A stretch of 64,000 bases of DNA from Mycetocola spongiae (GTDB lineage Bacteria > Actinomycetota > Actinomycetes > Actinomycetales > Microbacteriaceae), in the NCBI RefSeq assembly GCF_020424085.1, contig NZ_CP080203.1, positions 1,674,001 through 1,738,000 on the forward strand, read 5' to 3'. Position numbers and translations under genes: made by a program. This document shows positions 1,055 through 52,677 of this stretch, piece by piece (the stretch's first letter is position 1; every line of letters starts with the position of its first letter). The notes below the pieces were generated by a model. The model saw only the letters and a list, made by a program, of their open reading frames with translations, was not told the origin of the DNA and did no database searches.

Positions 1055-1070
1055 GGCACGACAATAACAG

Positions 1071-1109
1071 CCGGCCGGGACCCCCGAGGTGTTCGGGGGT
1101 CCCGGCCGG
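1071..1109. terminator. Terminator hairpin downstream of asd
   Basis: An 18-base arm starting CCGGCCGGGACCCCC pairs with its complement around a 3-4-base loop. It lies between the end of asd and the start of the truncated kinase gene, so it most likely ends the lysC-asd transcript. There is no T-run, which is common for terminators in high-G+C actinobacteria. Confidence 0.7.
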
Positions 1110-1127
1110 GAAACTGCGGGTTGCGGG

Positions 1128-2198
<1,071 letters not shown>

Positions 2199-2237
2199 TC
2201 AGATGGCGCCCGGCGTGGCGGGCGGCGGATACGGCCG

Positions 2238-2268
2238 CGCGCCGGCCGGAAGTATTCCGGTCGGCGCG
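2238..2268 (-). terminator. Hairpin between lysC and asd
   Basis: CGCGCCGGCCGGAA pairs with TTCCGGTCGGCGCG (one G-U type mismatch) around a three-base loop. In the direction of transcription it follows lysC and precedes asd. It has no T-run, so it may act as a partial terminator or an mRNA-stabilising element, not a full stop. Function is inferred from position only. Confidence 0.45.
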
Positions 2269-2296
2269 AGGCCTCAAAAACGGGTGTAGGGGGTGG

Positions 2297-2815
2297 TTAG
2301 CGGCCGGTTCCGGCGTAAACGATGGCCTCGATCTCGTTGTCCAGGCCAAAGACCGAGTGCACCACGCGGGCGGCCTCGTTAACCGAGTCGGCGCGGGTGA
2401 CAACCGAGATGCGGATCTCACTCGTGGAGATCATCTCGATATTAATCGACGCCTTATGCAGCGCATCAAAGAGCTTCGCCGAGACACCGGTATTGGCCTT
2501 CATGCCGGCGCCAACCAGCGCAAGCTTGCCGATCTGGTCGTCGTGCTGCACCGAGGCAAAGCCGATGGCGTCCTTCTCGTTGCGCAGCGCGGTGAGCACC
2601 AGCTGGGCCTCGGATTTGGGCAGGGTGAAGGAGATATCGGTCAGGCCCGTGGCGGCGGCCGAAACATTCTGCACGATCATGTCCACATTGGCCTCGGTCT
2701 TGGCGATGATGCCAAAGATCTGCGCGGCCTTACCGGGAACATCGGGCACGCCGACGACGGTGATCTTGGCCTCGCTCAGGTCGGTGGCGACACCGGTGAC
2801 GATGGGCTGTTCCAT
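2297..2815 (-). CDS. Embedded aspartate kinase beta subunit (internal start in lysC)
   Basis: Same frame as lysC. A near-perfect ribosome-binding site, AAGGAGGGTGACGCC, sits directly before an internal ATG at 2815. Translation from there gives 172 residues starting [17 protein letters not shown], exactly the ACT-domain region. Corynebacterium aspartate kinase is an alpha2beta2 enzyme made from such nested starts, and the same size is expected here. The start signal is seen; use of it in this organism is inferred. Confidence 0.75.
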
Positions 2816-3562
2816 GGCGTCACCCTCCTTCGGGTTATAGACGAGGGTACCCTCGTTATTGGTAAATGATGAACGAACGTGGAGCGTGACGCCGTGGCGC
2901 CGCGCAAACTCCACGGCGCGGATATAAAGCACCTTGGCGCCATTGGCGGCGAGCTCGAGCATTTCCTCTGTGGTGATCTTATCGAGCTTGCGGGCCAGCG
3001 GCACGACGCGCGGATCGGACGTGAAGACGCCGTCCACATCGGTATAGATCTCGCAGACATCCGCGTGCAGCGCCGCGGCCAGGGCCACCGCGGTGGTATC
3101 GGAGCCGCCGCGGCCGAGGGTGGTGATATCGGCGGTGTCCTGGGACAGGCCCTGGAAACCGGCAACGATCACGATTGCGCCCTCGTCCAGCGCCTGGCGC
3201 ACCCGCACCGGGTCCACCTCCACGATGCGCGCGGCACCGTGGTGGGTATCGGTGCGCATTCCGGCCTGCGGGCCGGAGAAGGAACGCGCGTCATAGCCCA
3301 TCGATTTAATCGCCATCGCGAGCAGGGCCACGGCGATGCGCTCCCCGCTGGAGAGCAGCATGTCCAGCTCGCGCTGGTCCGGGAGCGGGGAGACCTCATG
3401 GGCGAGATCCAGCAGCTCATCCGTGGAATCACCCATGGCCGAGACGGCCACCACCACGTCATGCCCGGCCTTGCGGGTGTCAATAATTCGCTTGGCGACG
3501 CGCTTAATGCTCTCGGCGTCGGCTACCGACGATCCGCCGTATTTTTGCACGATAAGGCTCAC
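2297..3562 (-). CDS. lysC: Aspartate kinase (alpha subunit)
   Basis: Phosphorylates aspartate, the committed step of the aspartate family of amino acids and of diaminopimelate for peptidoglycan. The 421 residues begin with the kinase signature KYGGSSV, carry the amino-acid kinase domain to about residue 240, and end in two ACT domains (about 260-410) that in this family bind lysine and threonine for feedback inhibition. As in corynebacteria, a second start inside the gene at 2815 would yield the regulatory ACT subunit separately. The gene is first in a lysC-asd unit. Confidence 0.97.
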
Positions 3563-3582
3563 GTGAAACTCCTGATAAGAAT

Positions 3583-3599
3583 GCGGGCGCTACGCCCGC
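3583..3599. terminator. Hairpin between recR and lysC
   Basis: GCGGGCG-CTA-CGCCCGC, followed on the plus strand by GGGGTTTTT. It sits just downstream of recR and upstream of lysC, both on the minus strand, so it could separate the dnaX-recR and lysC-asd transcripts. The T-run faces the plus direction, so efficiency on the minus strand is uncertain. Confidence 0.4.
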
Positions 3600-3649
3600 G
3601 GGGTTTTTAGTCTAGAACGCCGCGAATAACAGATTTGGCATGTTACGAG

Positions 3650-4246
3650 CTAGCCAACGACGGTGCGGCCCTCGAAGGCGCGGCCGAGGGTAATCTCATC
3701 GGCGTATTCGAGGTCGCCGCCCACCGGCAGTCCGGAGGCAAGGCGGGTGACCTTGATGTCCAGGGTGGTGAGCAAACGGCTGAGGTAGGTGGCGGTGGCC
3801 TCCCCCTCAAGGTTGGGGTCTGTGGCGAGGATAACCTCGGTGACGGTGCCATCGGCGAGGCGCTGCATGAGCTGGCGGATGCGCAGATCATCGGGGCCCA
3901 CGCCGTCGATGGGGCTGATTGCCCCACCCAGCACGTGATACAGGCCGCGGAACTCGCGGGTGCGCTCGATGGCGACCACGTCCTTGGCCTCCTCCACCAC
4001 ACAGATAAAGGTTTGGTTGCGGCGCGGATCGCGGCAGATGCCGCAGGTTTCCTCCTCGGCCACGTTGCCGCATATCGAGCAGAAGTGCACGCGCGTGCGG
4101 ATCTCGCCGAGGATCTCGGAGAGCCGGGTGACGTCAAAGCTCTCGGTCTGCAGGATGTGGAATGCGATGCGCTGCGCGGATTTGGGACCGATGCCGGGCA
4201 GGCGACCGAACTCCTCGATCAGTTCCTGAACAATTCCCTCGTACAT
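3650..4246 (-). CDS. recR: Recombination mediator RecR
   Basis: Works with RecO (and RecF) to load RecA at single-strand gaps. The 198 residues have the family architecture: a helix-hairpin-helix region near the N-terminus ([16 protein letters not shown]), a four-cysteine zinc finger (CSIC...CGIC, about residues 56-71), then a Toprim domain with [11 protein letters not shown]. The gene begins 9 bp after dnaX ends, the classic dnaX-recR arrangement, and is presumably co-transcribed with it. Confidence 0.97.
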
Positions 4247-6823: not shown

Positions 6824-6832
6824 ATCCCCAGT

Positions 6833-8293
6833 CTAATCGGGACGGCCGACCTCCGGGGAGGGTGCGAGGCTGGGTATGGCAATTCCCAGGTCGGAGAGCG
6901 CCGCGCGCGCGGCATAAAAACCGCCGCTGCCGTGCACGCCGGGCCCCGGGGGCACCGCCGCCGACCCCAGATATAGACCCGGGGTGGGCGTGCGCCAGGG
7001 CTCGCGGGCAAGCCGCGGCCGGGCCAAAAGCTGAGCAAAATTGGTGGCGCCGGAGCCAATATCTCCGCCGATAAAATTGGGGTTTCGGGCCTCCAATTGG
7101 CACGCGCTGGTGGCCGCCGAACCGAGGATCAGGTCCCGGAATCCGGGCGCATAGCGCTCGATCTCGGCGCTAATATACTCGGTGGCATCCAGGTCGCTGC
7201 CCGCGGGAACATGCACATAGGCCCAGAGCGCGGCGCTGCCCGCGGGGGCGCGTGTGGAATCCACGAGGCTCGGCTGAACCACAAGAATATAGGGCTGCTC
7301 CACGAGGTTGCCGCGGGCCACCGCTCGCTCGGAGGCGGCCACCTGCGCCGCGGTTCCCCCCAGGTGCACCGTGGGGGACTCCCGCAGCTCCTGCGCGCTC
7401 CAGGGCACGGGGCCCGAGAGCGCAAAATCCACCTTCGCGCTTCCGTTGCCATAGCGGAAGCGGCGCAGCGAGCGGAGATATTTTGTCGGCAGCACATCCG
7501 CCCCGATCGCGGCCAGATCCCGCGCGGAGGTATCGCAGAGCACCACCGCGGCATCACCCACGTCGTGGATCGACGCGATCCGCACACCCGTTGTGATCCG
7601 GCCGCCGTGCGCGCGCAGATCCTCCACGAGGGCCGCGGTGACCGCGCCCGCACCCCCGATCGGCAGGGGCCAGCCGCGCGGGCCGTGCGCATGCGCGGCG
7701 AGCACAACCCCCACCGCGGTGAGCGCAAGCGAGCGGGTATTGCCGATCCCGTGGGCCGCCGCCCCCGCAAAAAGCGCGCGGGCGTTTTCACCGCCGAGGC
7801 GCGGCAACCCGGCGGGGAAATTGGCCAGCACCGAGCCGGCGAGACGGGCCGCCAGCACGGGGTGGCGCGGCCCCTCCGCGAGCGGGGCTCCGAGCAGGCC
7901 CGCGAGTTCGGGGAGCCGCCGCGAGAGCCCCTCAAAGGCCCGCGTCCAGGCCCGGCCATCGCGGCCCAGCCCTGCGGCCGTGCGCCGAATATCGCGATAG
8001 GCCACCGCGATCCGATCCGGGGCGATACCGTGCGCAAAGGAGATATCGGGGGTCACATAGGGTACCCGCTCGGTCAGGCCAAACGCGCGAAAAAACTCCG
8101 AGGTCATCGCCATCGGATGCACCGCTGAGCCCACATCGTGATGGAAGCCCGGCAGCGTCAGCTCCTCGGTGCGGCAGCCGCCCCCGGGCACGGAATCGGA
8201 TTCATAAACGGTGACATCCAGCCCGGCCCGGGCGAGGGTGACCGCGCCGACCAGGCCGTTGGGACCGCTACCGATTACCGCCGCTGTGACCAT
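6833..8293 (-). CDS. CrtI/phytoene-desaturase-like FAD oxidoreductase
   Basis: FAD-dependent amine-oxidase/phytoene-desaturase superfamily protein, 486 residues. The N-terminal dinucleotide-binding motif is IGSGPNGLVGAVTLARAG with GGGCRTEE after it; the C-terminal FAD-binding block has GLYLGSAAVPPGPGVHGSGG. No carotenoid genes lie nearby, so it is more likely one of the PYROXD2-like oxidoreductases of unknown substrate. The start was placed at ATG 8293 because TAGACT at 8306-8301 would be a -10 box about 7 nt upstream, implying a leaderless mRNA. The GTG at 8299 is an alternative. Confidence 0.8.
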   Translation of the reverse strand: MVTAAVIGSGPNGLVGAVTLARAGLDVTVYESDSVPGGGCRTEELTLPGFHHDVGSAVHPMAMTSEFFRAFGLTERVPYVTPDISFAHGIAPDRIAVAYRDIRRTAAGLGRDGRAWTRAFEGLSRRLPELAGLLGAPLAEGPRHPVLAARLAGSVLANFPAGLPRLGGENARALFAGAAAHGIGNTRSLALTAVGVVLAAHAHGPRGWPLPIGGAGAVTAALVEDLRAHGGRITTGVRIASIHDVGDAAVVLCDTSARDLAAIGADVLPTKYLRSLRRFRYGNGSAKVDFALSGPVPWSAQELRESPTVHLGGTAAQVAASERAVARGNLVEQPYILVVQPSLVDSTRAPAGSAALWAYVHVPAGSDLDATEYISAEIERYAPGFRDLILGSAATSACQLEARNPNFIGGDIGSGATNFAQLLARPRLAREPWRTPTPGLYLGSAAVPPGPGVHGSGGFYAARAALSDLGIAIPSLAPSPEVGRPD

Positions 8294-8320
8294 GGTCACC
8301 AGTCTAGGGGCGCGCCCCTC

Positions 8321-8347
8321 GGGGCGGGAGTCCCCGGCTCCCGCCCC
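8321..8347 (-). terminator. Terminator hairpin after the ABC permease gene
   Basis: GGGGCGGGAG-TCCCCGG-CTCCCGCCCC immediately after the permease stop codon at 8356. It probably ends the four-gene export operon. Confidence 0.65.
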
Positions 8348-8355
8348 TGCCCGGG

Positions 8356-9564
8356 CTACACCCCGCGCAATGCCTCCGCGGGGGTCAGGCCCGAGGCGCG
8401 CCAGGCGGGCAGCATCCCGGCGAGCGCCCCCACGCCCAGCGCCAGCACCGGCGCGGCCAGCAGCGTGAGCGGATCGAGGCGGAAGAGCTGCCCGGTGAGC
8501 GCCGAATAAACGCCGGTCCCGAGGATGCCCAGGGCCGCACCGATCAGCCCCCCGATCAGCGAGAGCAGCATCGCCTCGGCAATAAACTGTCCGGCCACAT
8601 CGCGCCTTCTGGCCCCGAGGGCCCGGCGCAGCCCGATCTCGCCGCGGCGTTCGATCACCGCGACCACCATCGTATTGGCCACCCCGATGCCTCCCACCAG
8701 CAGGGCGATTCCGCCGAGCCCCAGGGCGAGGGTTCCGAGCGAGTCATCGGCCTGGGCGCGGGCATCGGCAAAATCGGAGAGCTTCGAGACCGCCACCTTC
8801 TCGGGGCGGGCCGGATTGGCGGTGGCCGCGAGCACGTTGCGCACCGCTCCCACGGCCGCGGGGGTTGTGCGCAGATAGATCATCGTGATCTCCCCGGCCC
8901 CGGTTTCCCCGACCGCCGCGCGCTCGGGCCAGAGCGTTTCCTGCAACCATTTATGGCCCACAAAAACGCTATCGTCCACGCCCGGCGCCAGCTCAACCGA
9001 GGAGAGTATCCCCAGCACCTGATGCCAGGAGCCGCCGAGCCACACCCGCTGCCCGGGCTCGCTGATGCCGAGGGTGATCGCGGCACGCGCGCCGAGGACC
9101 GCGGTGGGCAGCGCCTCGGTGGCCTCGCTGAACCACACACCCGAGGTCATCCGGGCGTCCAGCGCGGTGAGCAGGTCACGATCGGCCCCAAAAACCTTGA
9201 TGCCGCCGGAGTTTCGGGCGGGCACCAGGTCATTGCGATAGACCTTCACCCCCTTGGGGGCGCCATAGACGGTACCCACCGCCTCCACGGGGCCGATCCG
9301 GCCGATCATCTCCGGGGACTGCGCGGGCAGAGCCTCCTCATTGGGGGCGACGGTGAGCAGGTTGGCCCCCGCGCCGTCCAGCTCCGCGAGGAACTGGGCC
9401 CGATTGGAGGCGGCGATCCCGGAGATCGCCACGAGTGCCGCGATGCCCACCGCGATTCCGATTGCCGAGAGCACCGTGCGCAGCGGGCGCGCGGTGGCCC
9501 CGATCAGTGCGGCACCCCAGAGGTCGCGCGGGCGCACCCGGGTGCGGCGGCGTGAAATTTTCAA
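8356..9564 (-). CDS. MacB/FtsX-type ABC transporter permease
   Basis: Permease of a MacB-like tripartite-type exporter, 402 residues. One N-terminal membrane helix (about 22-48, LSAIGIAVGIAALVAISGI), a large extracellular MacB core domain (about 50-270), then three C-terminal helices with the FtsX signature ERRGEIGLRRALGARRRD. Its start overlaps the stop of the ATPase gene by 4 bp (ATGA). Proteins of this type with separate adaptor and ATPase usually export peptides, lipids or drugs or act as mechanotransmitters; the substrate here is unknown. Confidence 0.9.
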   Translation of the reverse strand: MKISRRRTRVRPRDLWGAALIGATARPLRTVLSAIGIAVGIAALVAISGIAASNRAQFLAELDGAGANLLTVAPNEEALPAQSPEMIGRIGPVEAVGTVYGAPKGVKVYRNDLVPARNSGGIKVFGADRDLLTALDARMTSGVWFSEATEALPTAVLGARAAITLGISEPGQRVWLGGSWHQVLGILSSVELAPGVDDSVFVGHKWLQETLWPERAAVGETGAGEITMIYLRTTPAAVGAVRNVLAATANPARPEKVAVSKLSDFADARAQADDSLGTLALGLGGIALLVGGIGVANTMVVAVIERRGEIGLRRALGARRRDVAGQFIAEAMLLSLIGGLIGAALGILGTGVYSALTGQLFRLDPLTLLAAPVLALGVGALAGMLPAWRASGLTPAEALRGV

Positions 9565-43225: not shown

Positions 43226-43882
43226 GTGTCTACGTCCCCGAATAAGCCCTCCATTAAGCAGCAGCGCGCGGCCTCGCGCGAGGCCAAGCTGGTGGAGTAT
43301 CGCCGCCAACAGGCCCGCGCCGCGCGCAACCGCAAGCTCGCAATCGGGGGCGGTGTGCTGGGTGGTGTTGCCGTCGTGGCGCTGATCGCTACCACCGTGA
43401 TCCTCACCCCGAAGCCCGTGACCTATGCCACCAACTCGGGTAAAACCGTGCAGGGTGTGGCCACCTTCACCAATGATGCCGCGCATACCACCGCCACCGT
43501 GAACTATGAGCAGACGCCGCCCGCCGGCGGACCGCATGACCCGGTCTGGCTGAACTGCGGCGTGTATACCGAGACCCAGCGCAGCGAAAACGCCGTCCAC
43601 GCCCAGGAGCACGGGGCCGTCTGGGTCACCTATGACCCCGCCCTGCCCGAGGCCGATATCGCCGCGATCCGCGCCAAGCTGCCCAGCACCTATGTGATCA
43701 TGTCGCCGTTCCCGGGCCTCGAAAACCCCGTGACACTGAGCGCCTGGAACGCCCAGCTGAGCCTGGATAAGATCGACGACCCGCGCTTCGAGGAGTTCTT
43801 CGAGGCCTATTGGAAGTCCAATGCCGTCCCCGAGCCCGGTTCGCCGTGCACGGGAGGTATCACCGGACCGGGAGCGGCATAA
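43226..43882 (+). CDS. DUF3105 membrane-anchored protein
   Basis: 218 residues, GTG start with GAGAGG upstream. A basic cytoplasmic N-terminus and one helix (about 38-58, GGGVLGGVAVVALIATTVIL) precede an extracytoplasmic DUF3105 domain with PPAGGPHDPVWLNCGVYTE and AVHAQEHGAVWVTYDP, containing conserved His and Cys. It overlaps the DUF305 gene, a frequent actinobacterial pairing of unknown role, possibly metal-related. Confidence 0.88.
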   Translation: MSTSPNKPSIKQQRAASREAKLVEYRRQQARAARNRKLAIGGGVLGGVAVVALIATTVILTPKPVTYATNSGKTVQGVATFTNDAAHTTATVNYEQTPPAGGPHDPVWLNCGVYTETQRSENAVHAQEHGAVWVTYDPALPEADIAAIRAKLPSTYVIMSPFPGLENPVTLSAWNAQLSLDKIDDPRFEEFFEAYWKSNAVPEPGSPCTGGITGPGAA

Positions 43883-44610
43883 TTTCCGAGCAGCCCGAGG
43901 TCCTGGATCCCGAACTGAGTGAGGCCGAGCAGGCCGCCGCCCGCCAGGGCCGCGGCCGCCGCGCGGTGCTGGCCTGGGCCGTGGGCGGCGGCGCCCTGGT
44001 CATCGCGCTGATCGTGGTGTTCTCCCTCGGTCGCCTCTCGACCCTGGGCGAGCCCACCCCCGGCAACGCCAGCGCCGAAGCGGGTTTTGCCCGGGATATG
44101 CAGGAGCATCACGATCAGGGGGTTGAGCTTGCGATGATCGTGCGCGACCTGACCACCGATCCCGCCGTGCGCACGCTCGCCTATGACATCGCCCGCACCC
44201 AGGGCGCCCAGTCCGGCATGATGAGCGGCTGGCTTGCGGTCTGGGGCCTGCCCCAGGCCGCCCCGGAACCGGCCATGACCTGGATGATGCGCCCCGATAA
44301 TAAGGGAATGGCCCATGACCACTCGGGCCGCGGCGCGGGTAATGCCGCCGTGACCCACCGGCCGGGGGACCCGATGCCCGGCCTGGCCACCCCCGCGCAG
44401 ATCGCCCACCTGGAGACCCTGACCGGGATCGAGGCCGAGCGCGAGTTCCTGGAGCTGATGATCGCGCATCACCGCGGGGCCGTGGAGATGGCCGATGCGC
44501 TGCTGGATCGCAGCACCAACGGCGTGGCCACGACCCTCTCGCGCGGAATCGTCTCCTCGCAGGAATCCGAGATCACGCTGATGACGGAGATGCTCGCGGC
44601 CCGCTCCTAG
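43846..44610 (+). CDS. DUF305 membrane-anchored protein
   Basis: A helix (about 42-62) followed by an extracytoplasmic four-helix DUF305 domain. The paired His motifs are visible: FARDMQEHHDQGVELAMI and LELMIAHHRGAVEMADA, which bind metal in characterised members. The start is uncertain: GTG 43846 gives 254 residues and overlaps DUF3105; the family-typical start may instead be near ISEQPEV just after the DUF3105 stop, where GGGAG is seen but only an ATT codon is available. Convergent with the ABC exporter, overlapping by 4 bp. Confidence 0.85.
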   Translation: MHGRYHRTGSGIISEQPEVLDPELSEAEQAAARQGRGRRAVLAWAVGGGALVIALIVVFSLGRLSTLGEPTPGNASAEAGFARDMQEHHDQGVELAMIVRDLTTDPAVRTLAYDIARTQGAQSGMMSGWLAVWGLPQAAPEPAMTWMMRPDNKGMAHDHSGRGAGNAAVTHRPGDPMPGLATPAQIAHLETLTGIEAEREFLELMIAHHRGAVEMADALLDRSTNGVATTLSRGIVSSQESEITLMTEMLAARS

Positions 44611-46478
44611 CCGAGCGGGCCCTGCACCTGCTCGGCAAAGAGCCGGGCATAAAGCCCGCCGCGCGCGAGCAGTTCCTCGTGGGTGCCGTGCTCAGCGATC
44701 CGCCCGGCCTCGACCACAAAGATCACGTCCGCCGCGACGATCGTGGACAGGCGGTGCGCGATGGCCACGGTGGTGCGCCCGGCCGAGGCCGATTCCAGCG
44801 CCTGCTGCACGATGCGCTCGGAGAGCGTATCCAGCGCGCTTGTGGCCTCGTCGAGGATCAGCACGGGCGGATCCTTAAGCAGCACCCGCGCGATCGCCAC
44901 GCGCTGCTTCTCGCCGCCCGAGAGCCGATAGCCGCGCTCGCCCACCACGGTGTCATAGCCCTCGGGGAAGCGGATGATCGTCTCGTGAATATTCGCGGCC
45001 TTGGCCGCGCGGATCAGCTCGTCCATGCCCGCGTCCGGCCGCGCATAGCGCAGGTTTTCGGCGATGGTCGCGTGGAAGAGATACGTCTCCTGGTTGACCA
45101 CACCGATCTCGCTCACGAGCGAGCGGTGCCGCAGGTCCTTCACATCGGTGCCGCCGAAGATCACGCTTCCGCCGGTGGCGTCATAAAAGCGCGGAATCAG
45201 ATAGGACACCGTGGTTTTTCCCGCGCCACTCGGGCCCACAAAGGCGGCAAATTGGCCGGGCTCAATCGTGAAGCTCACGGCGTCCAGCGTGGGGCGCTCC
45301 CGCTCGGTGGCATCGGGATAGCGGAAGGTGACCTCGCGGAACTCGATCCGGCCCGCGGGCCCGGGGCTCTGCGCCACGTCGATCGCCTCGGGGCGGTCGG
45401 AGATCGCGGGCCGAAGATCCAGGTATTCAAAGATCCGGGCAAAGAGGGCACCCGAGGTTTGCAGGTCCAGGCCCACCCGCATGATCGCGATCAGCGGGAA
45501 GAGTAGCCGGGACTGCACCGTGGTGAAGGCCACGATCACGCCCGCGGAAATATCCATATGACCGCCGGTCATCAGCCAGCCGGAGACCAGATAGACGATC
45601 GCGGGGATCGAGGAGAGGAAGATATTCACCATCGCGAAGAACCACTGGCCGCTCATCTGCTGGCGCACCTGGAGGCCCACCTGCACCCGGTTGGCCGCCC
45701 GATAGCGGTCGATCTCGGCCTCCTGGCGGCCGAAGCTCTTGGACAGCAGCACACCCGAGACGCTCAGGGTCTCCTGCGTGATGGCGGTCATATCGGAGAG
45801 CGATTCCTGGGTTTTGGTGGCGATCTTGGCGCGCACCTGCCCCACCCGGCGCTGCGCGATCACGAGGAACGGCATCAGCACGAGGGCCACAAACGTGAGC
45901 TGCACGTTCAGCAGCAGCATCGCCACAAGCGCGGCCAGCACGGTCACGGTATTACCGAGAACACTCGAGATGGTATTGGTCAGGACCGAGGAGACCCCGC
46001 CCACGTCGTTTTGCAGGCGCGACTGGATCACGCCGGTCTTGGTGCGGGTAAAAAAGCTCAGCTCCATGTCCTGCAACCGGCTAAATAGCCGCACCCGCAG
46101 CTCGCCCATCACGGTATTACCCACGGTCGCGGTGAGCCAGGTCTGCCAGACGCCCAGCGCGGTCGAGACGATAAAAATCGCGATCATGGTGGAGACGATG
46201 ATCGTCAGTGCGGGCAGATTGGGGCCGCCGGTCTTGGGGAACAGGCCCACATCAAAGGCCTGCGAGACCAGCAGGGGCGGGATCACCGAGAGGGCGGCGC
46301 CGATCAGCACCAGTGCCACGGTGACGATGATCTTCTTTTTATGCGGCCGGAACAGCCCCATGATTCGCCGAAACAGGTGCGGAATCTTCGGGGCCTCGGC
46401 GTTAATCGCCCGCTGGGCGGACTCGTCTCCGCCGCTGACCCGGCCTCCCCCGCGGCCTCCGCCGCCACGCATACTCAT
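44607..46478 (-). CDS. ABC exporter, fused membrane and ATPase domains
   Basis: 623 residues from ATG 46478. Gly/Arg-rich N-terminus, six membrane helices (about 45-330), then ATPase with GPSGAGKTTVSYL, LSGGEKQRVAIARVLL, VLILDEATSALD and IAHRLSTI. This is the homodimeric multidrug/lipid exporter type. It lies about 2 kb from the linaridin-like island but beyond the MarR/MFS pair, so a role in peptide export is only a possibility. Confidence 0.9.
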   Translation of the reverse strand: MSMRGGGGRGGGRVSGGDESAQRAINAEAPKIPHLFRRIMGLFRPHKKKIIVTVALVLIGAALSVIPPLLVSQAFDVGLFPKTGGPNLPALTIIVSTMIAIFIVSTALGVWQTWLTATVGNTVMGELRVRLFSRLQDMELSFFTRTKTGVIQSRLQNDVGGVSSVLTNTISSVLGNTVTVLAALVAMLLLNVQLTFVALVLMPFLVIAQRRVGQVRAKIATKTQESLSDMTAITQETLSVSGVLLSKSFGRQEAEIDRYRAANRVQVGLQVRQQMSGQWFFAMVNIFLSSIPAIVYLVSGWLMTGGHMDISAGVIVAFTTVQSRLLFPLIAIMRVGLDLQTSGALFARIFEYLDLRPAISDRPEAIDVAQSPGPAGRIEFREVTFRYPDATERERPTLDAVSFTIEPGQFAAFVGPSGAGKTTVSYLIPRFYDATGGSVIFGGTDVKDLRHRSLVSEIGVVNQETYLFHATIAENLRYARPDAGMDELIRAAKAANIHETIIRFPEGYDTVVGERGYRLSGGEKQRVAIARVLLKDPPVLILDEATSALDTLSERIVQQALESASAGRTTVAIAHRLSTIVAADVIFVVEAGRIAEHGTHEELLARGGLYARLFAEQVQGPLG

Positions 46479-46586
46479 GCCGTCAGCATACCCAGTACGA
46501 TGGGATGCGGGTATGGCGCCATGCATAATCCGGCGCGCAAAATCGGTCCGCGCCCGGGCCGCACCCGGGCGCAGACCGGCCGCGGC

Positions 46587-47807
46587 CTAGGACTCGCCGA
46601 GCCCAATCGCCTCGGCCACCTCGAGGGTGTCCTCATGGGCGATATCCACGCGGTCCAGGGCGCGCCGGCCCAGCACCACGATCAGCAGCGCCACGAGGGC
46701 CGAGCCCGCGGCCACAAAATACGGCGCACCGGGGCTGAGCAGCAGCGCGATCTCGGCGGCCGCGGGCGGGGCCGCCGCGCCGCCGAGGAATCGGATCGCG
46801 GAATACGAGGAGGAGGCCACGGCACGCGGCAGATCGGTGGCCTCCATGACACACTCCGTGAGCACGGTATTGGCGATGCCCAGGATCAGGCCGCCGATGA
46901 TGATCGTCACGATCAGCCCGGCGGTATTATCTACGAGCAGGCCGGCCGCGATCAGATCCGCGGCGAGCAGCGCGAGCACCAGCCAGAGCACGCGGGTGCG
47001 GCGCAGGTGTGCGGTCAGCAGCGGCGCACCAAGCACGCTCGTAAGAGCAAGGGCGAGACCCCAGCCAAAGAAGGTAAAGCCGAGCCCAAGCGTGGTCAGC
47101 CCGAGCGGGAACGGGCTATAGGCGAGCATCACAAAAAACGCGATGTTATAAAACAGTGCGGCCACGGCCAGCAGGGCCAGGGCGGGCTGCCCAAGCGCCC
47201 GGAACGGCGCGGAGAGCTTCACGGGTTGTGGCTTTTCGGTGGGGCGATCCAGCAAAACTACGATCGCGATGAAGCCCACGGCCATCAGCGCGGCGGTGCC
47301 AAAAAACGGTCCGCGCCAGCTGAGGGAGCCGAGCAGGCCACCCACCAGCGGGCCGATCGCGATGCCCACGCCGAGGGCCGCCTCATAGAGGATGATGGCC
47401 GAGCCGGTTCCGCCCGAGGCCGCGCCCACGATTGTGGCGAGGGCCGTGGAGATAAACAGGGCGTTGCCCAGGCCCCAGCCGGCGCGGAAGCCGATGATCT
47501 CGTTCACGCCGCCCGCGAGGGCCGCCGCGAGGGCAAAAATCACGATGATGACCAGGCCCACGAGCAGCGTGCGCTTGGCGCCGATCCGGCTGGAGATCCA
47601 GCTGGTGAAAAACATGGCCAGGCCGGTGATCAGCAGATAGCTGGTGAAGAGCATCTCGGTCTGGGTGGGGGTGGCGTCGAGGTCGGCGGCGATGACCGGC
47701 AGGATGGGGTCCACGAGGCCGATCCCCATAAACGCGATGACACAGGCGAAGGCCACGGCCCAGACCGATTTGGGCTGGCGCCAGATTCCGGCGCTGGACC
47801 CGCTCAT
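46587..47807 (-). CDS. MFS efflux transporter under MarR control
   Basis: 406 residues, 12 helices. VWAVAFACVIAFMGIGLVDPILPVI and the loop after helix 2 (TSWISSRIGAKRTLL) mark a drug-efflux MFS protein. Its start overlaps the MarR gene stop by 4 bp, so the two form one autoregulated unit, the standard MarR-pump arrangement. Confidence 0.9.
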   Translation of the reverse strand: MSGSSAGIWRQPKSVWAVAFACVIAFMGIGLVDPILPVIAADLDATPTQTEMLFTSYLLITGLAMFFTSWISSRIGAKRTLLVGLVIIVIFALAAALAGGVNEIIGFRAGWGLGNALFISTALATIVGAASGGTGSAIILYEAALGVGIAIGPLVGGLLGSLSWRGPFFGTAALMAVGFIAIVVLLDRPTEKPQPVKLSAPFRALGQPALALLAVAALFYNIAFFVMLAYSPFPLGLTTLGLGFTFFGWGLALALTSVLGAPLLTAHLRRTRVLWLVLALLAADLIAAGLLVDNTAGLIVTIIIGGLILGIANTVLTECVMEATDLPRAVASSSYSAIRFLGGAAAPPAAAEIALLLSPGAPYFVAAGSALVALLIVVLGRRALDRVDIAHEDTLEVAEAIGLGES

Positions 47808-48268
47808 GCGAGGTCCCCGCGCCCGGGGCCCACCCGGTCGGTCAGGACTGCGGCGGCGCGATCGAGGGCGTCGAGTTCGGCGGGGTCAAGATCGCTAAAG
47901 CGCGGCAGGAGCTGGTCCAGCAGCTGTTGCCGCCAGTTTTCCAGCGCGGCGAGCCCGGCGGGGGTGAGGTCCAGGAGCTGGGCGCGGGCATCACCGCTAT
48001 CGGCGATGCGGCGGATCCACTCCTCGGAATCCAGCCGGGTGATGATCTTGCTCATCGTGGGCTGGCTCACGCGGCCGTGCCGGGCGAGTTCGCCCACGCG
48101 CATCGGGCCGCTATGGGCGAGGGTTCCGAGCGTGCGCCAGACGGCGGGCGACTCCTGGTTTTGGGTGGCATGCGCGGCAAGACGGGTGAGGCGGTGTGCG
48201 GAGAACACCAGGTCGCCCAGGATGTCGTGAATACCACGCTGAGCGGTGGTGGATTCAGGATCAGACAT
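47804..48268 (-). CDS. MarR-family regulator
   Basis: 154 residues from ATG 48268 (MSDPEST). The winged helix has MRVGELARHGRVSQPTMSKIITRLDSEEWIRR and a wing DARAQLLDLTPAG. TATAAT at 48279-48274 places transcription start at or next to the ATG, so the mRNA is likely leaderless. A perfect dyad directly overlaps this promoter, pointing to autorepression together with the downstream MFS pump. Confidence 0.92.
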   Translation of the reverse strand: MSDPESTTAQRGIHDILGDLVFSAHRLTRLAAHATQNQESPAVWRTLGTLAHSGPMRVGELARHGRVSQPTMSKIITRLDSEEWIRRIADSGDARAQLLDLTPAGLAALENWRQQLLDQLLPRFSDLDPAELDALDRAAAVLTDRVGPGRGDLA

Positions 48269-48278
48269 ACCGCAATTA

Positions 48279-48297
48279 TACATAGCTTGGCTATGTA
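48279..48297. promoter_or_regulatory. MarR operator overlapping the -10 box
   Basis: TACATAGC-TTG-GCTATGTA, a perfect 8-bp inverted repeat with a 3-bp centre, one base into the TATAAT (48279-48274) of the MarR gene. MarR proteins bind such dyads; the location fits repression by blocking polymerase. Confidence 0.75.
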
Positions 48298-48300
48298 CTT

Positions 48301-48471
48301 TTATGGGGTGGCGCAATCGGGCGCCATCTGCCCCGGATCCACAGCCCACGGCCGGGTTCCGCCGATACGATCCCGGACGAAACGGTCGATGAGGCCTGCC
48401 CGCTCATCGGCTGCACCGAAAGAGCGCGTGGCGACGCGAATTTGCGAAATTCCACATTTGCGCAGGCTGGT
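48301..48471 (-). pseudogene. Possible 3' remnant of a gene truncated at the island border
   Basis: The minus strand is open from a stop near 48472 to a stop at 48301, and the segment 48301-48437 has host-like high G+C and coding-like sequence (FGAADERAGLIDRFVRDRIG). No usable start exists, and composition changes abruptly near 48437. This would fit the tail of an older gene cut by arrival of the island. The protein family is not recognised and chance openness is possible. Confidence 0.25.
48438..48452. promoter_or_regulatory. Inverted repeat upstream of the precursor-peptide genes
   Basis: GAATTT-GCG-AAATTC, followed 3 bp later by a second ATTTGCG. It lies about 120 bp before the first precursor gene at the point where base composition becomes A+T-rich. 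A promoter-proximal operator is possible; no regulator gene was found inside the island. The rest of 48298-48574 holds no other clear element and no confident promoter. Confidence 0.35.
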
Positions 48472-48574
48472 TATCTCCTACCAGAACACATTGTGCTCCA
48501 CACATATCTTTTGTATCGAGCGCAAGCTGATTCCACACAAGCATTCCCGTTACTCACGAGGTTTAGGAGAAACA

Positions 48575-48778
48575 TTGAAACACTCAATCAGTATTCATAC
48601 GTCGATGGAGAGCTTTGCGCGAACACAATATCCCGGTACAAAAGCTGTGCTTAACCATCCGTCTCAATCCAGCCCAGCGCTGACCACTCCTGTGGTGCTT
48701 GTAATTGCCACCCCGGAGGAAGTCGCGGTAGCTAGCGCGATCGCCAACCTTGCAATCGCTGCAGCCATGTCGAACTGA
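48575..48778 (+). CDS. Linaridin-like precursor peptide 1
   Basis: 67 residues. TTG start at 48575 with AGGAG five bases upstream; from here it aligns with precursor 2 at the PALTTP block without any gap, which settles the start. Leader (about 1-36): MKHSISIHTSMESFARTQ onward, with FAR corresponding to the FAN motif of linaridin leaders. Junction motif PALTTP fits PxxxTP. The predicted core starts at TTP, is about 31 residues, hydrophobic (VVLVIATPEEVAVASAIANL) and ends MSN, with Thr at core positions 1, 2 and 10. No Cys, so no AviCys ring. Thr dehydration to Dhb is expected by analogy, not shown. Confidence 0.82.
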   Translation: MKHSISIHTSMESFARTQYPGTKAVLNHPSQSSPALTTPVVLVIATPEEVAVASAIANLAIAAAMSN

Positions 48779-48808
48779 CACGAATAAAACCATAAATTGG
48801 AGATGAAA

Positions 48809-49012
48809 ATGCATAAAACGAACCACACAAAAATGGAAATGTTCGCAAATGAGCTATTTGTCAATCCTGACTCATTCGTCGGCAATCGTGATACAGGGTT
48901 CCCTGCACTGACCACGCCGATAGTTCTAGTGGTCGCAACCCCGCAGGAGGCTGCGGTTACCGCCGCTGTTGGCGCAGCCGTCGCCTCGATCGTAGGCAAG
49001 GTCATCGGCTGA
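48809..49012 (+). CDS. Linaridin-like precursor peptide 2
   Basis: 67 residues from ATG 48809, with GGAG six bases upstream; ATG 48803 and TTG 48797 are in-frame alternatives. The leader contains KMEMFANELFVNPDSF, whose FAN motif matches the linaridin precursor of cypemycin, then FPALTTP (PxxxTP). Predicted core from TTP, about 33 residues: IVLVVATPQEAAVTAAVG then an Ala/Val/Ile/Gly-rich tail ending GKVIG. It has Thr at core positions 1, 2, 10 and 17 and no Cys. It lies 30 bp after precursor 1 and just before a strong hairpin. Products are probably membrane-active. Confidence 0.85.
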   Translation: MHKTNHTKMEMFANELFVNPDSFVGNRDTGFPALTTPIVLVVATPQEAAVTAAVGAAVASIVGKVIG

Positions 49013-49030
49013 GATGAAATGGGGCACCCT

Positions 49031-49062
49031 GAGGCTGGGGCGCTACAAAGCGCCCCAGCCTC
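49031..49062 (+). terminator. Hairpin between precursor genes and biosynthetic genes
   Basis: A perfect 14-bp stem, GAGGCTGGGGCGCT against its complement, with loop ACAA, starting 18 bp after the second precursor stop codon. RiPP operons often use such a leaky terminator so that precursor mRNA exceeds enzyme mRNA. It also argues that the HTTM gene does not start at ATG 49014, which would put the stem inside its coding region. Confidence 0.75.
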
Positions 49063-49172
49063 ATTCCAGGGCTTCGGCTAAGAGCGGATCTTCTCAGTCG
49101 AACAGCTTGCACAGAGATCCGCAACTTTCTGAGGCGTATACAAAGCTCAGCCATGTCCAAAGGGTCGCAGCT

Positions 49173-49931
49173 ATGGGGACGATCATCAACAGCCTCGAGG
49201 GCATCAACCAGCGGTCACTCTATGAAACCGGCGGCTTATTATCCGGACGGTTCACGGAAAACCATCCAAGGTTCGCAAAACTCTTTCCGCAAGTGGCCAG
49301 CATTATAGATAGCGCGTTTTTCGCAATAGCACTGGATGGGGTGCTGCTGGTTAATTCGCTGTCCACGATAGCGCGCAGCAACCACAAACAGGCTACTCCG
49401 CTACGACCCCTCATCTCGACCGCGGTTGCCATTTTGCAACGCTTACGCACAGGCTACGGGCGTGACGGATCCGACCAGATGTTTGAACTGCTATCTGGGA
49501 TCTGTACGCTCGCGGCGACGTCCCCTTTGCGCGAACAATCTGCCGATAATGCTCTTCGTGCCATAAACATCGAGCTGTCAATTTCCTACGTCGCGTCGGG
49601 ACTTGTCAAACTTTTCGGGCCCGAATGGCGGAACGGCACCGCAGTAGCCTCAATCATGCAAACCAGTAGCTACGGCTCGCCTTGGTTGTCACAAGCGCTG
49701 AACAAACATCCCTCGCTCTCTACGGCGGCATGCTGGGCAACTATCGCGGGCGAAACGCTGTTTCCCGTAATTTTTATGCTGCCCACAGCAGCTGCACGAC
49801 GCTTGCTTCCAATCGCCACTCTTTTTCATCTGGCAATCGCCTATTTCATGGGACTACCTAGGTTTTTCTGGGCATTCGGCGCCGCACATGTCGCCAGCCT
49901 GTTCGTAATCGAGAACAAATCAAAAAGATAG
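49173..49931 (+). CDS. HTTM-like membrane protein of the linaridin-type cluster
   Basis: 252 residues from ATG 49173 (AAAGGG eight bases upstream). In-frame starts at TTG 49107 and ATG 49014 exist, but the latter would span the hairpin. Several membrane helices. The segment INIELSISYVASGLVKLFGPEWRNGTA is the HTTM hallmark (YxxSGxxKL...W..G), followed by GETLFPVIFMLP, LFHLAIAYFMGLPRFFW and a last helix. HTTM domains are related to vitamin-K-dependent carboxylase membrane domains. In linaridin clusters an HTTM-type region occurs with an alpha/beta hydrolase, fused as LinH or split. Here it is separate. Lower G+C than flanks. Confidence 0.75.
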   Translation: MGTIINSLEGINQRSLYETGGLLSGRFTENHPRFAKLFPQVASIIDSAFFAIALDGVLLVNSLSTIARSNHKQATPLRPLISTAVAILQRLRTGYGRDGSDQMFELLSGICTLAATSPLREQSADNALRAINIELSISYVASGLVKLFGPEWRNGTAVASIMQTSSYGSPWLSQALNKHPSLSTAACWATIAGETLFPVIFMLPTAAARRLLPIATLFHLAIAYFMGLPRFFWAFGAAHVASLFVIENKSKR

Positions 49932-49944
49932 GAAACGATAACTC

Positions 49945-50163
49945 ATGAAACTAAGGCCTCAGAAGCGCGAACAAAGGATTGCGTTCAGACGCGGTTCAGC
50001 CATCGGTATCGCGTTAATTATTGCGTTCGGGTTGTCAGCCCTTGCCCGAATCTTTCTGCATGGGCCCGTGGCCGGTTACACGGTCGCAGCGATTGTGGTC
50101 ACCGTGATCGTAGCCGCTCTCGTCTATTCGCATTGGGGAGGGAAGAACATTGGGGACAGGTAG
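49945..50163 (+). CDS. Two-helix 72-aa membrane protein
   Basis: A basic N-terminus (KLRPQKREQRIAFRRG) and two membrane helices (about 19-37 and 43-61). It starts 13 bp after the HTTM gene with AGGAAA upstream, and its end overlaps the hydrolase start by 14 bp, so it is embedded in the operon. It might link the HTTM and hydrolase proteins into one membrane complex, or protect the producer. No family recognised. Confidence 0.65.
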   Translation: MKLRPQKREQRIAFRRGSAIGIALIIAFGLSALARIFLHGPVAGYTVAAIVVTVIVAALVYSHWGGKNIGDR

Positions 50164-51121
50164 CGCAGGGACAACCAAGATCAACAGTTTTGAGGGAGGA
50201 TTTCTCACCGCACTAGGGGGCTTAGTTACTGCATCTATTCTGCACGTTGCCGTTCGTGCCTCGCTGGCTCCCATGTTTCGTCAGGCAAGGTTAGGTACAA
50301 AAACCGAGTTGGTCGAGGGCGGCCGAGTTGAATATCTACTCACAAACGGCGCTCAAGCAGGACCTTTGATCGTCTGTGAAAATGGTCTCGGTAGCCCGTT
50401 GGAGTCCTGGGACTGGTTCACAGGGTCTGATCACCTAAAAGACCACAAAATACTGGCCTACAACCGCGCAGGATATGGCGCATCACGCTCTAACCAGTCT
50501 GGACCCCAGTTCTTAGCAAACCTACTTGCAAAGATAGGAAACCACGATCCTCTCGTATTTGTGACCCACTCCCTCGGAGTATTTCACTACTTACGCGCGT
50601 TGCCGTACTGCGGGTCGTTATTGCCTCCGGTTCTTGGCGCAGTGATCGTAGATGGGACAGACGCCACGCAGTTTCAGGATCAGAACACCAGTATCGAGCC
50701 GTTTGATAAGGTGCGACAAGCTCTAACTATTCAGTGCTTTTCGGCATTGATAGGAACCGCGTTGCACAGCCCAGCCCTGGCGCGAGAGGTTTCCTATCGT
50801 GGTGTCATCCAACGCTCCTTCATTGACTATTCGGTTTCGCCGAGAACGGCGTTTAACGCGAGGGCAGAGTTTTCTCACGCAATGAAATTTCCTCCGAGGT
50901 TACCGAGCACAACCATTCCCACAAAAATTATTTCGGCGGAGCACGGAGCTACAAACAGCGCTGAGCATCTAGCCGAGCAAATTGCACTTAGCCGATCGCT
51001 TCACGCCAATAAGCCCATTAGTATTCGGGGGGCAACTCACCGCTCAATTCTGGGAGATCGAGTGCATGCGAATGCCGTGGCTAAGGAGGTGAGCGAGTTC
51101 GTTGTCTCCATTCGCAATTAA
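50150..51121 (+). CDS. Alpha/beta hydrolase of the linaridin-type cluster
   Basis: 323 residues; TTG start at 50150 with GGGAGGGAAG upstream, inside the preceding gene. One N-terminal helix (about 16-38, FLTALGGLVTASILHVAVRA) anchors an alpha/beta-hydrolase domain. Oxyanion-type loop CENGLGSPLESWDWF, YNRAGYGAS, nucleophile elbow VTHSLGVF (Ser near residue 142), and a late His in GATHRSILGD complete a plausible catalytic triad. By analogy with grisemycin and cypemycin, where H and L proteins form a complex needed for dehydration, epimerisation and leader removal, this may be the hydrolase half. The reaction itself is inferred. Confidence 0.75.
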   Translation: MGTGSAGTTKINSFEGGFLTALGGLVTASILHVAVRASLAPMFRQARLGTKTELVEGGRVEYLLTNGAQAGPLIVCENGLGSPLESWDWFTGSDHLKDHKILAYNRAGYGASRSNQSGPQFLANLLAKIGNHDPLVFVTHSLGVFHYLRALPYCGSLLPPVLGAVIVDGTDATQFQDQNTSIEPFDKVRQALTIQCFSALIGTALHSPALAREVSYRGVIQRSFIDYSVSPRTAFNARAEFSHAMKFPPRLPSTTIPTKIISAEHGATNSAEHLAEQIALSRSLHANKPISIRGATHRSILGDRVHANAVAKEVSEFVVSIRN

Positions 51122-51716
51122 GCGTAGGCAGTCAGTGTGGCATCTCATCTCCACGACCCTATTGATGTTATGGCTCTTGGCTACAGCCCTCAGCAATAGC
51201 CCAGATAGCTTTATCGGCGCACGAAAGATTGCGCGTCGCTTGGGCGTAGTGATGCCAAACTGGCGATTTTTCGGGCCAAACCCGGGGACAAATGACTACC
51301 ACTTGCTCTACAGGTTTGGAAGGAGAAACTGCCCTCTAACGCAATGGGTAGAAGTCCCAACAGCCGTCCCCAGAGGCTGGAATTCGCTCTTTTGGAACCC
51401 TGGGTCCCGTGGTCCCAAGGCCGTTTTCGACTGTTGTCAGACTATTGTCCTCAACGCGTCAACCCAAAATAACAGCCTCCAGCAGGCTACCGACAGCGCT
51501 GCGTTTCAGGCAATACTTCAGTTTATCGAGACGAAAACGCCTGTTTCTGATGCCGAAGAAATCCAGGTGATGATCTTGTCGACCATTCGCGAAGATGACG
51601 TAAATAACGTTTCACCGATGCTGATCACACACTTCATGAATCGAAGTAGAGGAAATGCGGAAGGAGACGGTAAACGCGCCTCTGCGATGACCACGCGATC
51701 CGCCGACACCAAATGA
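51102..51716 (+). CDS. LinL-like membrane-anchored protein
   Basis: 204 residues. TTG start at 51102 overlapping the hydrolase end, with a perfect AAGGAGGT at 51083-51090. One N-terminal helix (about 13-31), then an extracytoplasmic or soluble domain opening with NWRFFGPNPGTNDYHLLYR, a motif seen in proteins that accompany HTTM proteins. The rest is helical and ends in a polar tail. Order and partner genes suggest the LinL-type partner of the modifying complex, but homology was judged by motif only. Confidence 0.6.
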   Translation: MSPFAIKRRQSVWHLISTTLLMLWLLATALSNSPDSFIGARKIARRLGVVMPNWRFFGPNPGTNDYHLLYRFGRRNCPLTQWVEVPTAVPRGWNSLFWNPGSRGPKAVFDCCQTIVLNASTQNNSLQQATDSAAFQAILQFIETKTPVSDAEEIQVMILSTIREDDVNNVSPMLITHFMNRSRGNAEGDGKRASAMTTRSADTK

Positions 51717-51798
51717 GAGAGAAGATGCAGAGCCTTCTCGGACCCTGCGAGAACAGCGAGGAGGTGGGAGGCTGATCACGATATGCCTCCTCGCTAGC

Positions 51799-52212
51799 AT
51801 GGTTCTCGCACTGGCCTACAGCGTATGCTGTGTCACTCTCTCTGACTCTTATGTCGAGTTCATGCTTATCCGGGCCGGAATATCCTCCACCGATCCGGAG
51901 CATTCAGTGATCGCTGCCACGGGTTACGTCGTTGTATATGTGAGGCTATTAGGTTCCGTTTTTATCGCACTAACCGGGGCTAAAATGCTGAAAGCGCTCG
52001 GAGCACACGCGGAAAAATCCTACTCGGTGATATCTGTTGCTTCGTGCCTTGGCGTCATCGCCTATGGCTACCTACTCACGATTCGAAGCCCATTCTGGAT
52101 AAGAACTTTCCAATTTCTTCAGGTCGCATCCATGTTCGTGGTCTTCTGCATTGCAGCGGCTCAGGCTCAGCTCTACCGCAGGAAGCTAAAGCGGACCGCG
52201 AATGATAAATAG
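51799..52212 (+). CDS. Four-helix membrane protein, last gene of the island
   Basis: At least 137 residues with four membrane helices (about 1-14, 38-60, 72-93, 104-124) and a basic tail (RRKLKRTAND). The only standard start is ATG 51799, inside the first helix and without a ribosome-binding site. The frame continues upstream as LITICLLASM from a CTG at 51772, and GGAGG lies at 51767-51771, so the true N-terminus is unsettled. It is a candidate immunity or export factor by position; family unknown. Confidence 0.55.
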   Translation: MVLALAYSVCCVTLSDSYVEFMLIRAGISSTDPEHSVIAATGYVVVYVRLLGSVFIALTGAKMLKALGAHAEKSYSVISVASCLGVIAYGYLLTIRSPFWIRTFQFLQVASMFVVFCIAAAQAQLYRRKLKRTANDK

Positions 52213-52247
52213 AACACACCCCCATCCCTAAGGATGGGGGTGTGTTC
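52212..52247. terminator. Bidirectional terminator between the island and rplL
   Basis: GAACACACCCCCATCC pairs perfectly with its complement around CTAA. It serves the convergent island operon and rplJ-rplL, and marks the right border of the lower-G+C block. Confidence 0.85.
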
Positions 52248-52293
52248 TCAGAGCACCGAAGTGTTCAAGCAAGAGCCTCTCTCGAGGCGCAAA

Positions 52294-52677
52294 TTACTTG
52301 AGGGTAACGGTAGCGCCGGCCTCCTCCAGGGAAGCCTTGGCCTTCTCGGCAGCTTCCTTGGAAGCGCCCTCGAGGACGGCCTTGGGGGCGCCATCGACAA
52401 CGGCCTTGGCCTCGCCGAGACCCAGCGAGGTGAGCTCGCGGACGACCTTGATGACCTGGATCTTCTTGTCGCCAGCAGCCTCGAGGATAACGTCGAAGTC
52501 CGACTTCTCCTCAACCTCTTCGGCAGCGGCGGCGGGGCCTGCGGCACCGGCAACGGCTACGGGAGCGGCGGCGGTGACCTCGAAGGTCTCCTCGAATGCC
52601 TTAACGAACTCGGAGAGCTCGATGAGGGTGAGCTCCTTGAAAGCGTTCAGCAGTTCTTCAGTTGACAGCTTAGCCAT
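52294..52677 (-). CDS. rplL: 50S ribosomal protein L7/L12
   Basis: 127 residues. N-terminal dimerisation helix ([27 protein letters not shown]), an Ala/Glu-rich hinge, and the C-terminal domain with [28 protein letters not shown]. Forms the ribosomal stalk on L10. Co-transcribed with rplJ, 50 bp downstream of it. Confidence 0.99.

Follow-up and report, generated by a model that had tools for sequence, protein, structure and literature searches.

Gene block at the locus

The stretch analysed here (the window) comprises 64,000 nucleotides of Mycetocola spongiae (contig NZ_CP080203.1, positions 1,674,001 to 1,738,000, forward strand), and coordinates are counted from its first letter. The subject is a putative gene cluster for a linaridin-type ribosomally synthesised and post-translationally modified peptide (RiPP), lying in a block of about 3.9 kb (48300-52210). 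The G+C content of the block is 53.2%, compared with 67.7% in the rest of the window; the lowest value among 522 other segments of equal size was 65.3%. A preliminary description had pointed out this lower G+C content and had named the open reading frames (ORFs), all of which were found on the + strand as follows.

48575-48778, + strand: pre1 (LinA1), 67 aa, TTG start, Shine-Dalgarno sequence TAGGAGA; FAR leader, PALTTP junction, predicted core TTPVVLVIATPEEVAVASAIANLAIAAAMSN
48809-49012, + strand: pre2 (LinA2), 67 aa, ATG start; FAN leader, PALTTP junction, predicted core TTPIVLVVATPQEAAVTAAVGAAVASIVGKVIG
49030-49063, + strand: hairpin with a 15-pair stem and no U-run, between the precursors and the enzyme genes
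49107-49931, + strand: LinG-type HTTM membrane protein; frame open from 49014, start uncertain (TTG 49107 or ATG 49173)
49945-50163, + strand: protein with two transmembrane helices (2-TM), 72 aa, basic; candidate immunity or export part
50150-51121, + strand: LinE-type alpha/beta hydrolase with an N-terminal membrane helix; the aligned Ser, Asp and His fall in the motifs THSLG, VDGTD and ATHRS
51102-51716, + strand: LinL (WRFFGPNP protein), one N-terminal helix
51772-52212, + strand: protein with four transmembrane helices (4-TM), start uncertain (CTG 51772 or ATG 51799); candidate immunity or export part

All frames are open, and the genes overlap or pack closely (50150/50163, 51102/51121). 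The HTTM protein and the hydrolase are separate, unfused ORFs (49014-49931 and 50150-51121). A simple hydropathy scan gave two strong helices in the HTTM protein, two in the 2-TM protein and four in the 4-TM frame. No ATG, GTG or TTG start retains all four helices of the latter; CTG 51772, placed 7 nt past AGGAGG, would do so. The terminator-like hairpin described after the precursors is real (the stretch 3' of pre2 folds at -40.3 kcal/mol, z -4.5), but it lacks a U-run and lies inside the first codons of the HTTM frame as originally listed, so that the HTTM start is probably further downstream. The hairpin is possibly a processing or attenuation element. A sigma-70-type scan of 48250-52400 gave no promoter match. 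No decarboxylase/flavoprotein, methyltransferase, short-chain dehydrogenase/reductase (SDR) or ATP-binding cassette (ABC) gene was found within the block, by the ORF list and by Pfam and NCBIfam searches.

Enzyme homologues and related clusters

Profile searches (Pfam, NCBIfam), which the preliminary description had proposed as a check, returned weak labels and did not place the proteins in unrelated families. The hydrolase matched Abhydrolase_6 (E 3e-6), the WRFFGPNP protein matched DUF5819 (E 0.12), and the best NCBIfam match of the HTTM protein was SdpB (E 7e-5, 22.5 bits, cut-off 178.4). Two scans of contigs with single proteins gave no relative; their reliance on exact peptide patterns was probably too stringent for proteins of 25-40% identity. 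Whole-genome and plasmid searches did find relatives. With the hydrolase, 14 of the 297 genomes of the order matched at E <= 1e-3 (the M. spongiae genome included), mostly weakly. The three best other matches (L005-L007) were ORFs of 620-679 residues with an HTTM part ahead of the hydrolase part. The HTTM protein was matched at E <= 1e-20 in at least 12 of 394 genomes of the class, its own included, with up to five candidates scored per genome. It also matched 24 plasmid records, 12 of which correspond to loci L029-L040; plasmid records also yielded one Tsukamurella and one Embleya cluster. L021 and the weak hydrolase matches L008-L010 and L012-L017 were left out of the comparisons.

Three curated linaridin precursor models were used: NF033402 (cut-off 35), NF033403 (40) and NF033752 (35), which cover known subfamilies and do not define the family. 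When 396 genomes of the phylum were searched with NF033403, only genome G624 gave a match at E <= 1e-3 (26.1 bits, below cut-off); it was also the sole match, among the candidates scored (up to 15 per genome), when NF033402 was run against 394 genomes of the class. Locus L055 of this genome was therefore first found through its precursor and not through its enzymes, and homologues of the HTTM, hydrolase and WRFF proteins lie beside that precursor. Locus L056 of the same genome is a full cluster of type A (the cypemycin/grisemycin kind), with a precursor, the fused HTTM-hydrolase protein LinH, a WRFF protein, a flavoprotein (PF02441), a methyltransferase and an ABC ATPase. A type A cluster and a split linaridin cluster of the FAN type thus occur together in G624.

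The preliminary call of a linaridin cluster was borne out by the neighbours of these homologues: precursors over the curated cut-offs are present at L018 (NF033752, 89.6 bits), L023 (NF033403, 78.4 bits), L055 (NF033402, 110.2 bits) and L056 (NF033752, 98.9 bits), and the trees of three proteins (see below) agree. E-values for the comparisons with these relatives hold within the small sets compared. They were 3e-56 (L055), 1e-52 (L023), 3e-42 (L018) and 3e-39 (L056) for the HTTM protein, 7e-27 (L056) and 1e-19 (L055) for the hydrolase, and 8e-27 (L055) and 5e-18 (L056) for the WRFF protein. The WRFF protein sits straight after LinH in L056, and its homologues recur in five clusters in addition to L055 and L056; on its position and recurrence it was taken to be LinL. 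Twenty-one columns are invariant in 11 HTTM rows and 13 in 11 LinL rows. Ser, Asp and His are aligned across the eight hydrolases compared. The window hydrolase and that of L056 have THS(L/I)G, and the other six rows, L018 included, have GHS.

For the two small membrane proteins no relatives were found in the plasmids, and for the 4-TM protein none in 148 other genomes of the order. The 2-TM protein gave only weak matches in four linaridin-bearing genomes (best E 0.027), none of them inside a linaridin cluster.

Several of the related loci are of interest in themselves. The Streptomyces californicus plasmid NZ_CP070247.1 (L029) bears two adjacent clusters on opposite strands (945-4034 and 5494-8446): one has a fused LinH, the other split G/E/L genes, and short precursor-like ORFs accompany both. 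Split G/E/L genes stand beside lantibiotic dehydratase and lanthionine synthetase C genes on the plasmids of Streptomyces atratus (L033, NZ_CP109382.1, 975-8019) and Streptomyces sp. NBC_00158 (L032, 1-8319); no PxxxTP was found in the short annotated ORFs of these two loci, which are possibly hybrid lanthipeptide-linaridin clusters. On the 32-kb Kocuria sp. plasmid AP022832.1 (L034, 4286-8041) a short ORF with SPLAATP is followed by homologues of fused LinH and LinL, likely a linaridin-like cluster.

Precursor peptides

Pre1 and pre2 had been described as homologous, and they align with a score of 114; 2000 shuffles gave 25.2 ± 4.8 and none reached 114. Common to both are HTxMExFA[NR] and PALTTPxVLVxATPxExAV. 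The PALTTP (PxxxTP) junction is present in both as described, and the FAN leader motif is present in pre2, but pre1 has FAR. Among 1070 six-frame ORFs of at least 30 aa in the window, the pattern FA[NR]...PxxxTP...end was found in pre1 and pre2 only. The predicted cores contain three (core 1) and four (core 2) Thr, and neither precursor contains Cys.

Pre2 aligned with the L055 precursor along FAN, GN, PxxxTP and ATPxxxAVT with a score of 59 against 26.7 ± 4.9 (0/2000 shuffles), and pre1 scored 57 (0/2000; mean about 26 ± 5). A plasmid search with pre2 gave no match. In relatives, short precursor-like ORFs stand ahead of the enzyme genes in twos and threes: two in the fused cluster of L029, three in L030, two in L031 and three in L036, one of the last without PxxxTP.

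Trees and placement

Trees were built for the HTTM protein (30 rows), the hydrolase (25 rows) and LinL (28 rows), and for the three joined (17 rows, 822 columns). The L018 LinL is truncated where its contig stops; it is absent from the LinL tree and contributes 95 residues to the joined tree. L053, which covers the locus of L056, was left out of the trees, and the short HTTM match of L040 out of the HTTM tree. In the hydrolase tree and the joined tree the residue composition of the window row was marked as unusual.

In all four trees the window falls inside a clade whose precursors were verified (L055, L023, L056, and L018 where included), with support of 100/99 (HTTM), 99/99 (hydrolase), 99/93 (LinL) and 100/100 (joined). 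The placement in this clade is firm. Within the clade the window is sister to the type A rows, with support of 95/89, 96/89, 91/84 and 94/93, respectively. In approximately unbiased (AU) tests on the joined tree, grouping the window with the split pair cost 5.2 log units (p 0.103) and placing it outside the other four cost 5.9 log units (p 0.048). Because the split-pair grouping survives the test, the sister position relative to type A clusters (fused LinH) is a lean and not a result. The gene order agrees with this lean: A-A-G-x-E-L in the window corresponds to A-(G-E)-L in L056, but the order in L055 and L023 is E-L-A-G.

Probable insertion between rplL and marR

The window was compared with the three other genomes of the genus searched (G297-G299; stretches L058-L060; the G299 contig begins within rplL). 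The gap between rplL and marR is 4025 bp in the window and 153, 153 and 161 bp in the three congeners. Two elements mark its edges.

48279-48297, no strand assigned: palindrome ahead of marR (a - strand gene), whose core also precedes marR in L058-L060; left edge of the insertion
52211-52248, - strand: terminator-like hairpin downstream of rplL (- strand), at the cluster end; right edge of the insertion

Both elements stand at the edges in the window and in the congeners alike. Since marR adjoins rplL in all three congeners and the edge elements are conserved, insertion of the cluster between two native genes is the simplest account; its loss from three congeners is the less simple alternative.

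The genes for an ABC exporter (44607-46526), a major facilitator superfamily (MFS) transporter (46587-47807) and MarR were considered as parts of the system and rejected, as MarR and MFS homologues follow rplL in all three cluster-free congeners. The homologues share 56-61% (MarR), 70% (MFS) and 83-84% (ABC exporter) identity with the window proteins and make the neighbouring genes look native. The ABC homologue is present in two of the three congener stretches, and the third contig ends just beyond the MFS gene. A gene for a DUF305 protein (43810-44610) lies next to the native-looking ABC exporter, outside the cluster.

Relation to SDP and DUF5819 proteins

The LinL profile was compared with DUF5819 and SdpA by hhalign. 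It resembled DUF5819 with a probability of 93.4% (E 2.5e-7), over 39 columns only; five column-shuffled profiles and one hydrolase control gave 0.1-0.2%. The LinL of L056 matched DUF5819 at E 5.5e-4, below cut-off. Homology of LinL to SdpA was not supported by the profile comparison (0.3%), in which SdpA was represented by three rows. No SdpA match was found in the window genome at E 1e-5.

An HTTM-model match was present in 15 of 15 SdpA or DUF5819 loci examined. Conversely, a LinL-model match (E <= 1e-3) was present in 30 of 31 loci with an HTTM-model match, of which ten had supplied rows to the LinL model and two (L053 and L056) are one place; the miss was L037 and the weakest match the Bacillus locus L040 (9e-4). 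No hydrolase-model match was found in L037-L040 (Paroceanicella, Rhodococcus, Haloplanus and Bacillus plasmids), L043 or L052. Like the window, SdpAB and DUF5819/HTTM pairs combine an HTTM-model match with a nearby small protein that carries a WxFF-type motif; SdpAB differ in that the similarity of LinL and SdpA is not significant.

HTTM genes beside small proteins with WxFF or related motifs were also seen in the archaeon Haloplanus sp. GDY1 (plasmid; L039, 5397-6807), in Rhodococcus sp. DMU1 (L038, 5136-6504) and in the alphaproteobacterium Paroceanicella (L037, 5411-6510). The archaeal pair lies near YcaO and SagB-type genes. Among the titles and abstract openings surveyed, with PMC5719810, none was seen to draw a link among linaridins, HTTM, SdpA/SdpB and DUF5819. 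As LinL resembles DUF5819 and both occur near HTTM proteins, the linaridin enzymes would belong to a broader group of membrane pairs that mature peptides.

Proposed pathway and alternative readings

The block is very probably a horizontally acquired linaridin-type RiPP cluster with the minimal layout A1-A2-G-(2TM)-E-L-(4TM). The gene content, homology, tree placement and genomic island are direct observations; the pathway is proposed by analogy. The leaders (FAN/FAR region) would bring the precursors to a membrane complex of LinG, LinE and LinL, where Thr and probably Ser of the hydrophobic cores would be dehydrated; some residues may also be epimerised. The leader would be cut between PAL and TTP, giving products that begin with TTP; we take the exact cut position within PxxxTP to be as in cypemycin. 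Since the precursors have no Cys and the block no decarboxylase or methyltransferase gene, the expected products are linear, contain dehydrobutyrines and keep unmodified ends. The products are likely two linear peptides, dehydrated at Thr/Ser, with predicted masses of 2916.58 Da (core 1, three Thr and two Ser dehydrated) and 2982.73 Da (core 2, four Thr and one Ser), and may act as narrow-spectrum bacteriocins. The calculated monoisotopic masses are 2952.599 and 3000.737 Da for dehydration of Thr alone, and 3006.631 and 3072.780 Da for the unmodified cores.

The literature cited here treats the parts played by the G, E and L proteins in dehydration, epimerisation and leader cleavage as suspected, with proof still to come for the single proteins. 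One paper names LinH or LinL as the presumed dehydrating enzyme (PMC7794033), the corynaridin authors describe how G and E work as not yet clear in detail (PMC9927463), and grmL is described in a review as indispensable for grisemycin and as potentially encoding an epimerase (PMC10373908). In 2022 the linaridin enzymes were stated to be yet to be reconstituted in E. coli (PMC9576775). For the window proteins, LinE is a tentative candidate for the leader peptidase, somewhat short of an even chance, and LinL as the epimerase has little support. The chances that the 2-TM and 4-TM proteins serve immunity or export are about even, taken together. A broader proposal, which we consider rather doubtful, is that the window represents a third lineage of true linaridins near the root of type A, in which two peptides would be made together and G, E and L would suffice for all their chemistry and for leader cleavage. 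In this proposal the orphan 2-TM and 4-TM proteins would stand in for the usual ABC exporter, the LinH of type A would have arisen later by fusion of such separate genes, and LinL would be an HTTM partner of the DUF5819 kind. With only three candidate enzymes in one 3.9-kb block, testing the sufficiency of G, E and L becomes simple, and the cluster is a compact test bed for poorly understood dehydration chemistry.

Several points weigh against a linaridin cluster of this kind. Identities to the relatives are low, mostly 25-40%. Both precursors stay under the cut-offs of the curated models: pre2 reached 12.8 bits against NF033752 (linaridin_CypA) and pre1 matched none of the three, so that both are outside the coverage of these NCBIfam models. 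When the L023 precursor was the only reference, 90 and 84 of 2000 shuffles reached the scores of the window precursors. A profile of the four relatives' precursors ranked pre1 first and pre2 third of 1070 ORFs, but with E-values of only 0.011 and 0.22. The split relatives in the clade (L055, L023) have a methyltransferase and an ABC transporter nearby, and the block has none. Finally, one review (PMC10880069) lists cypemycin with the RiPPs whose synthesis uses kinases and lyases. This classification does not fit dehydration by G, E and L, and Pfam and NCBIfam searches showed nothing kinase- or lyase-like in the block.

An SDP-like (SdpABC) or DUF5819/HTTM peptide-toxin system, in which the HTTM protein and its WxFF partner would process an unmodified peptide, is suggested by SdpB as the best NCBIfam match of the HTTM protein, by the resemblance of the LinL profile to DUF5819 and by the HTTM-model matches in all the SdpA/DUF5819 loci. 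The SdpB score of 22.5 bits is far from the 178.4 required, however; LinL does not resemble the three SdpA rows, the window HTTM and LinL proteins fall inside the linaridin clade, and a hydrolase with PxxxTP precursors goes with linaridins, the four outside loci of HTTM/WRFF type (L037-L040) being without a hydrolase-model match. This explanation is accordingly very improbable. Decay of the cluster, with loss of exporter and methyltransferase and no product made, would account for the lack of ABC transporter, methyltransferase and SDR genes in the block and for the odd start codons (TTG, possibly CTG), but the frames are open, the genes close-packed, and the HTTM and LinL motifs and the hydrolase Ser/Asp/His are kept; corynaridin, moreover, is reported to be active without a methyltransferase (PMC9927463). 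We regard decay as improbable, if less so than an SDP-like system. A different question is whether the two peptides are halves of a two-component linaridin that act together and not independent variants. Pre1 and pre2 are diverged tandem paralogues with the same leader-core junction and different core ends, as such a pair would be, but relatives often have two or three precursor-like ORFs and simple product variety fits too; joint action is a possibility we think rather unlikely.

Comparison with known linaridins

Of the features by which linaridins are recognised, the window shows three: a LinL homologue, separate LinG and LinE, and a PxxxTP junction with a Thr-containing core. Dehydrated Thr in the product, a further mark of the family, is predicted. 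With type A clusters (L056, L018) it shares homologous HTTM, hydrolase and LinL proteins, the FAN leader and the PA(M/L)xTP junction. It differs from them in having separate G and E genes with the 2-TM gene between, and two precursors, and in having no flavoprotein decarboxylase, methyltransferase or ABC gene. Type A is marked by a C-terminal Cys, a flavoprotein decarboxylase and aminovinyl-cysteine (AviCys); neither precursor has a Cys and the block has no flavoprotein, and the HTTM-hydrolase fusion of L018 and L056 is absent as well.

Type B linaridins include legonaridin, mononaridin and corynaridin (PMC9927463), and L055, by its NF033402 precursor, is probably of this kind. The window resembles type B in its separate G and E plus LinL, in the absence of Cys and decarboxylase, and in a core with ATPExxAVxxA akin to that of L055. 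An SDR gene is described as part of type B clusters (PMC9927463), whereas none is present in the block; L055 has a methyltransferase, an ABC transporter and an FAD oxidoreductase, and the E-L-A-G order of L055 and L023 is unlike that of the window.

Corynaridin of Corynebacterium lactis is encoded with crdG (HTTM) and crdE (hydrolase) as separate genes (PMC9927463). By its published description it resembles the window in crdG, crdE and crdL, in PxxxTP, in the absence of methyltransferase and decarboxylase, and in precursor length (69 aa), and it differs in having a single precursor, crdC (SDR) and crdT (ABC). It is reported to be cut at PxxxTP, with all seven Thr and one Ser dehydrated alongside less dehydrated variants, and to act on corynebacteria, apparently without forming pores (PMC9927463). 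The machinery in separated form to which the preliminary description drew attention is thus present in the window, but it is not new: G and E are also separate in corynaridin and in L055, L023, L029, L030, L032 and L033. Separate G/E/L clusters are already known, and the window is not a new kind of system. New in it are twin precursors that lie under all curated cut-offs and lack Cys, a minimal enzyme set, a lineage that probably neighbours type A yet keeps G and E apart, and two membrane proteins that are orphans in the searches made.

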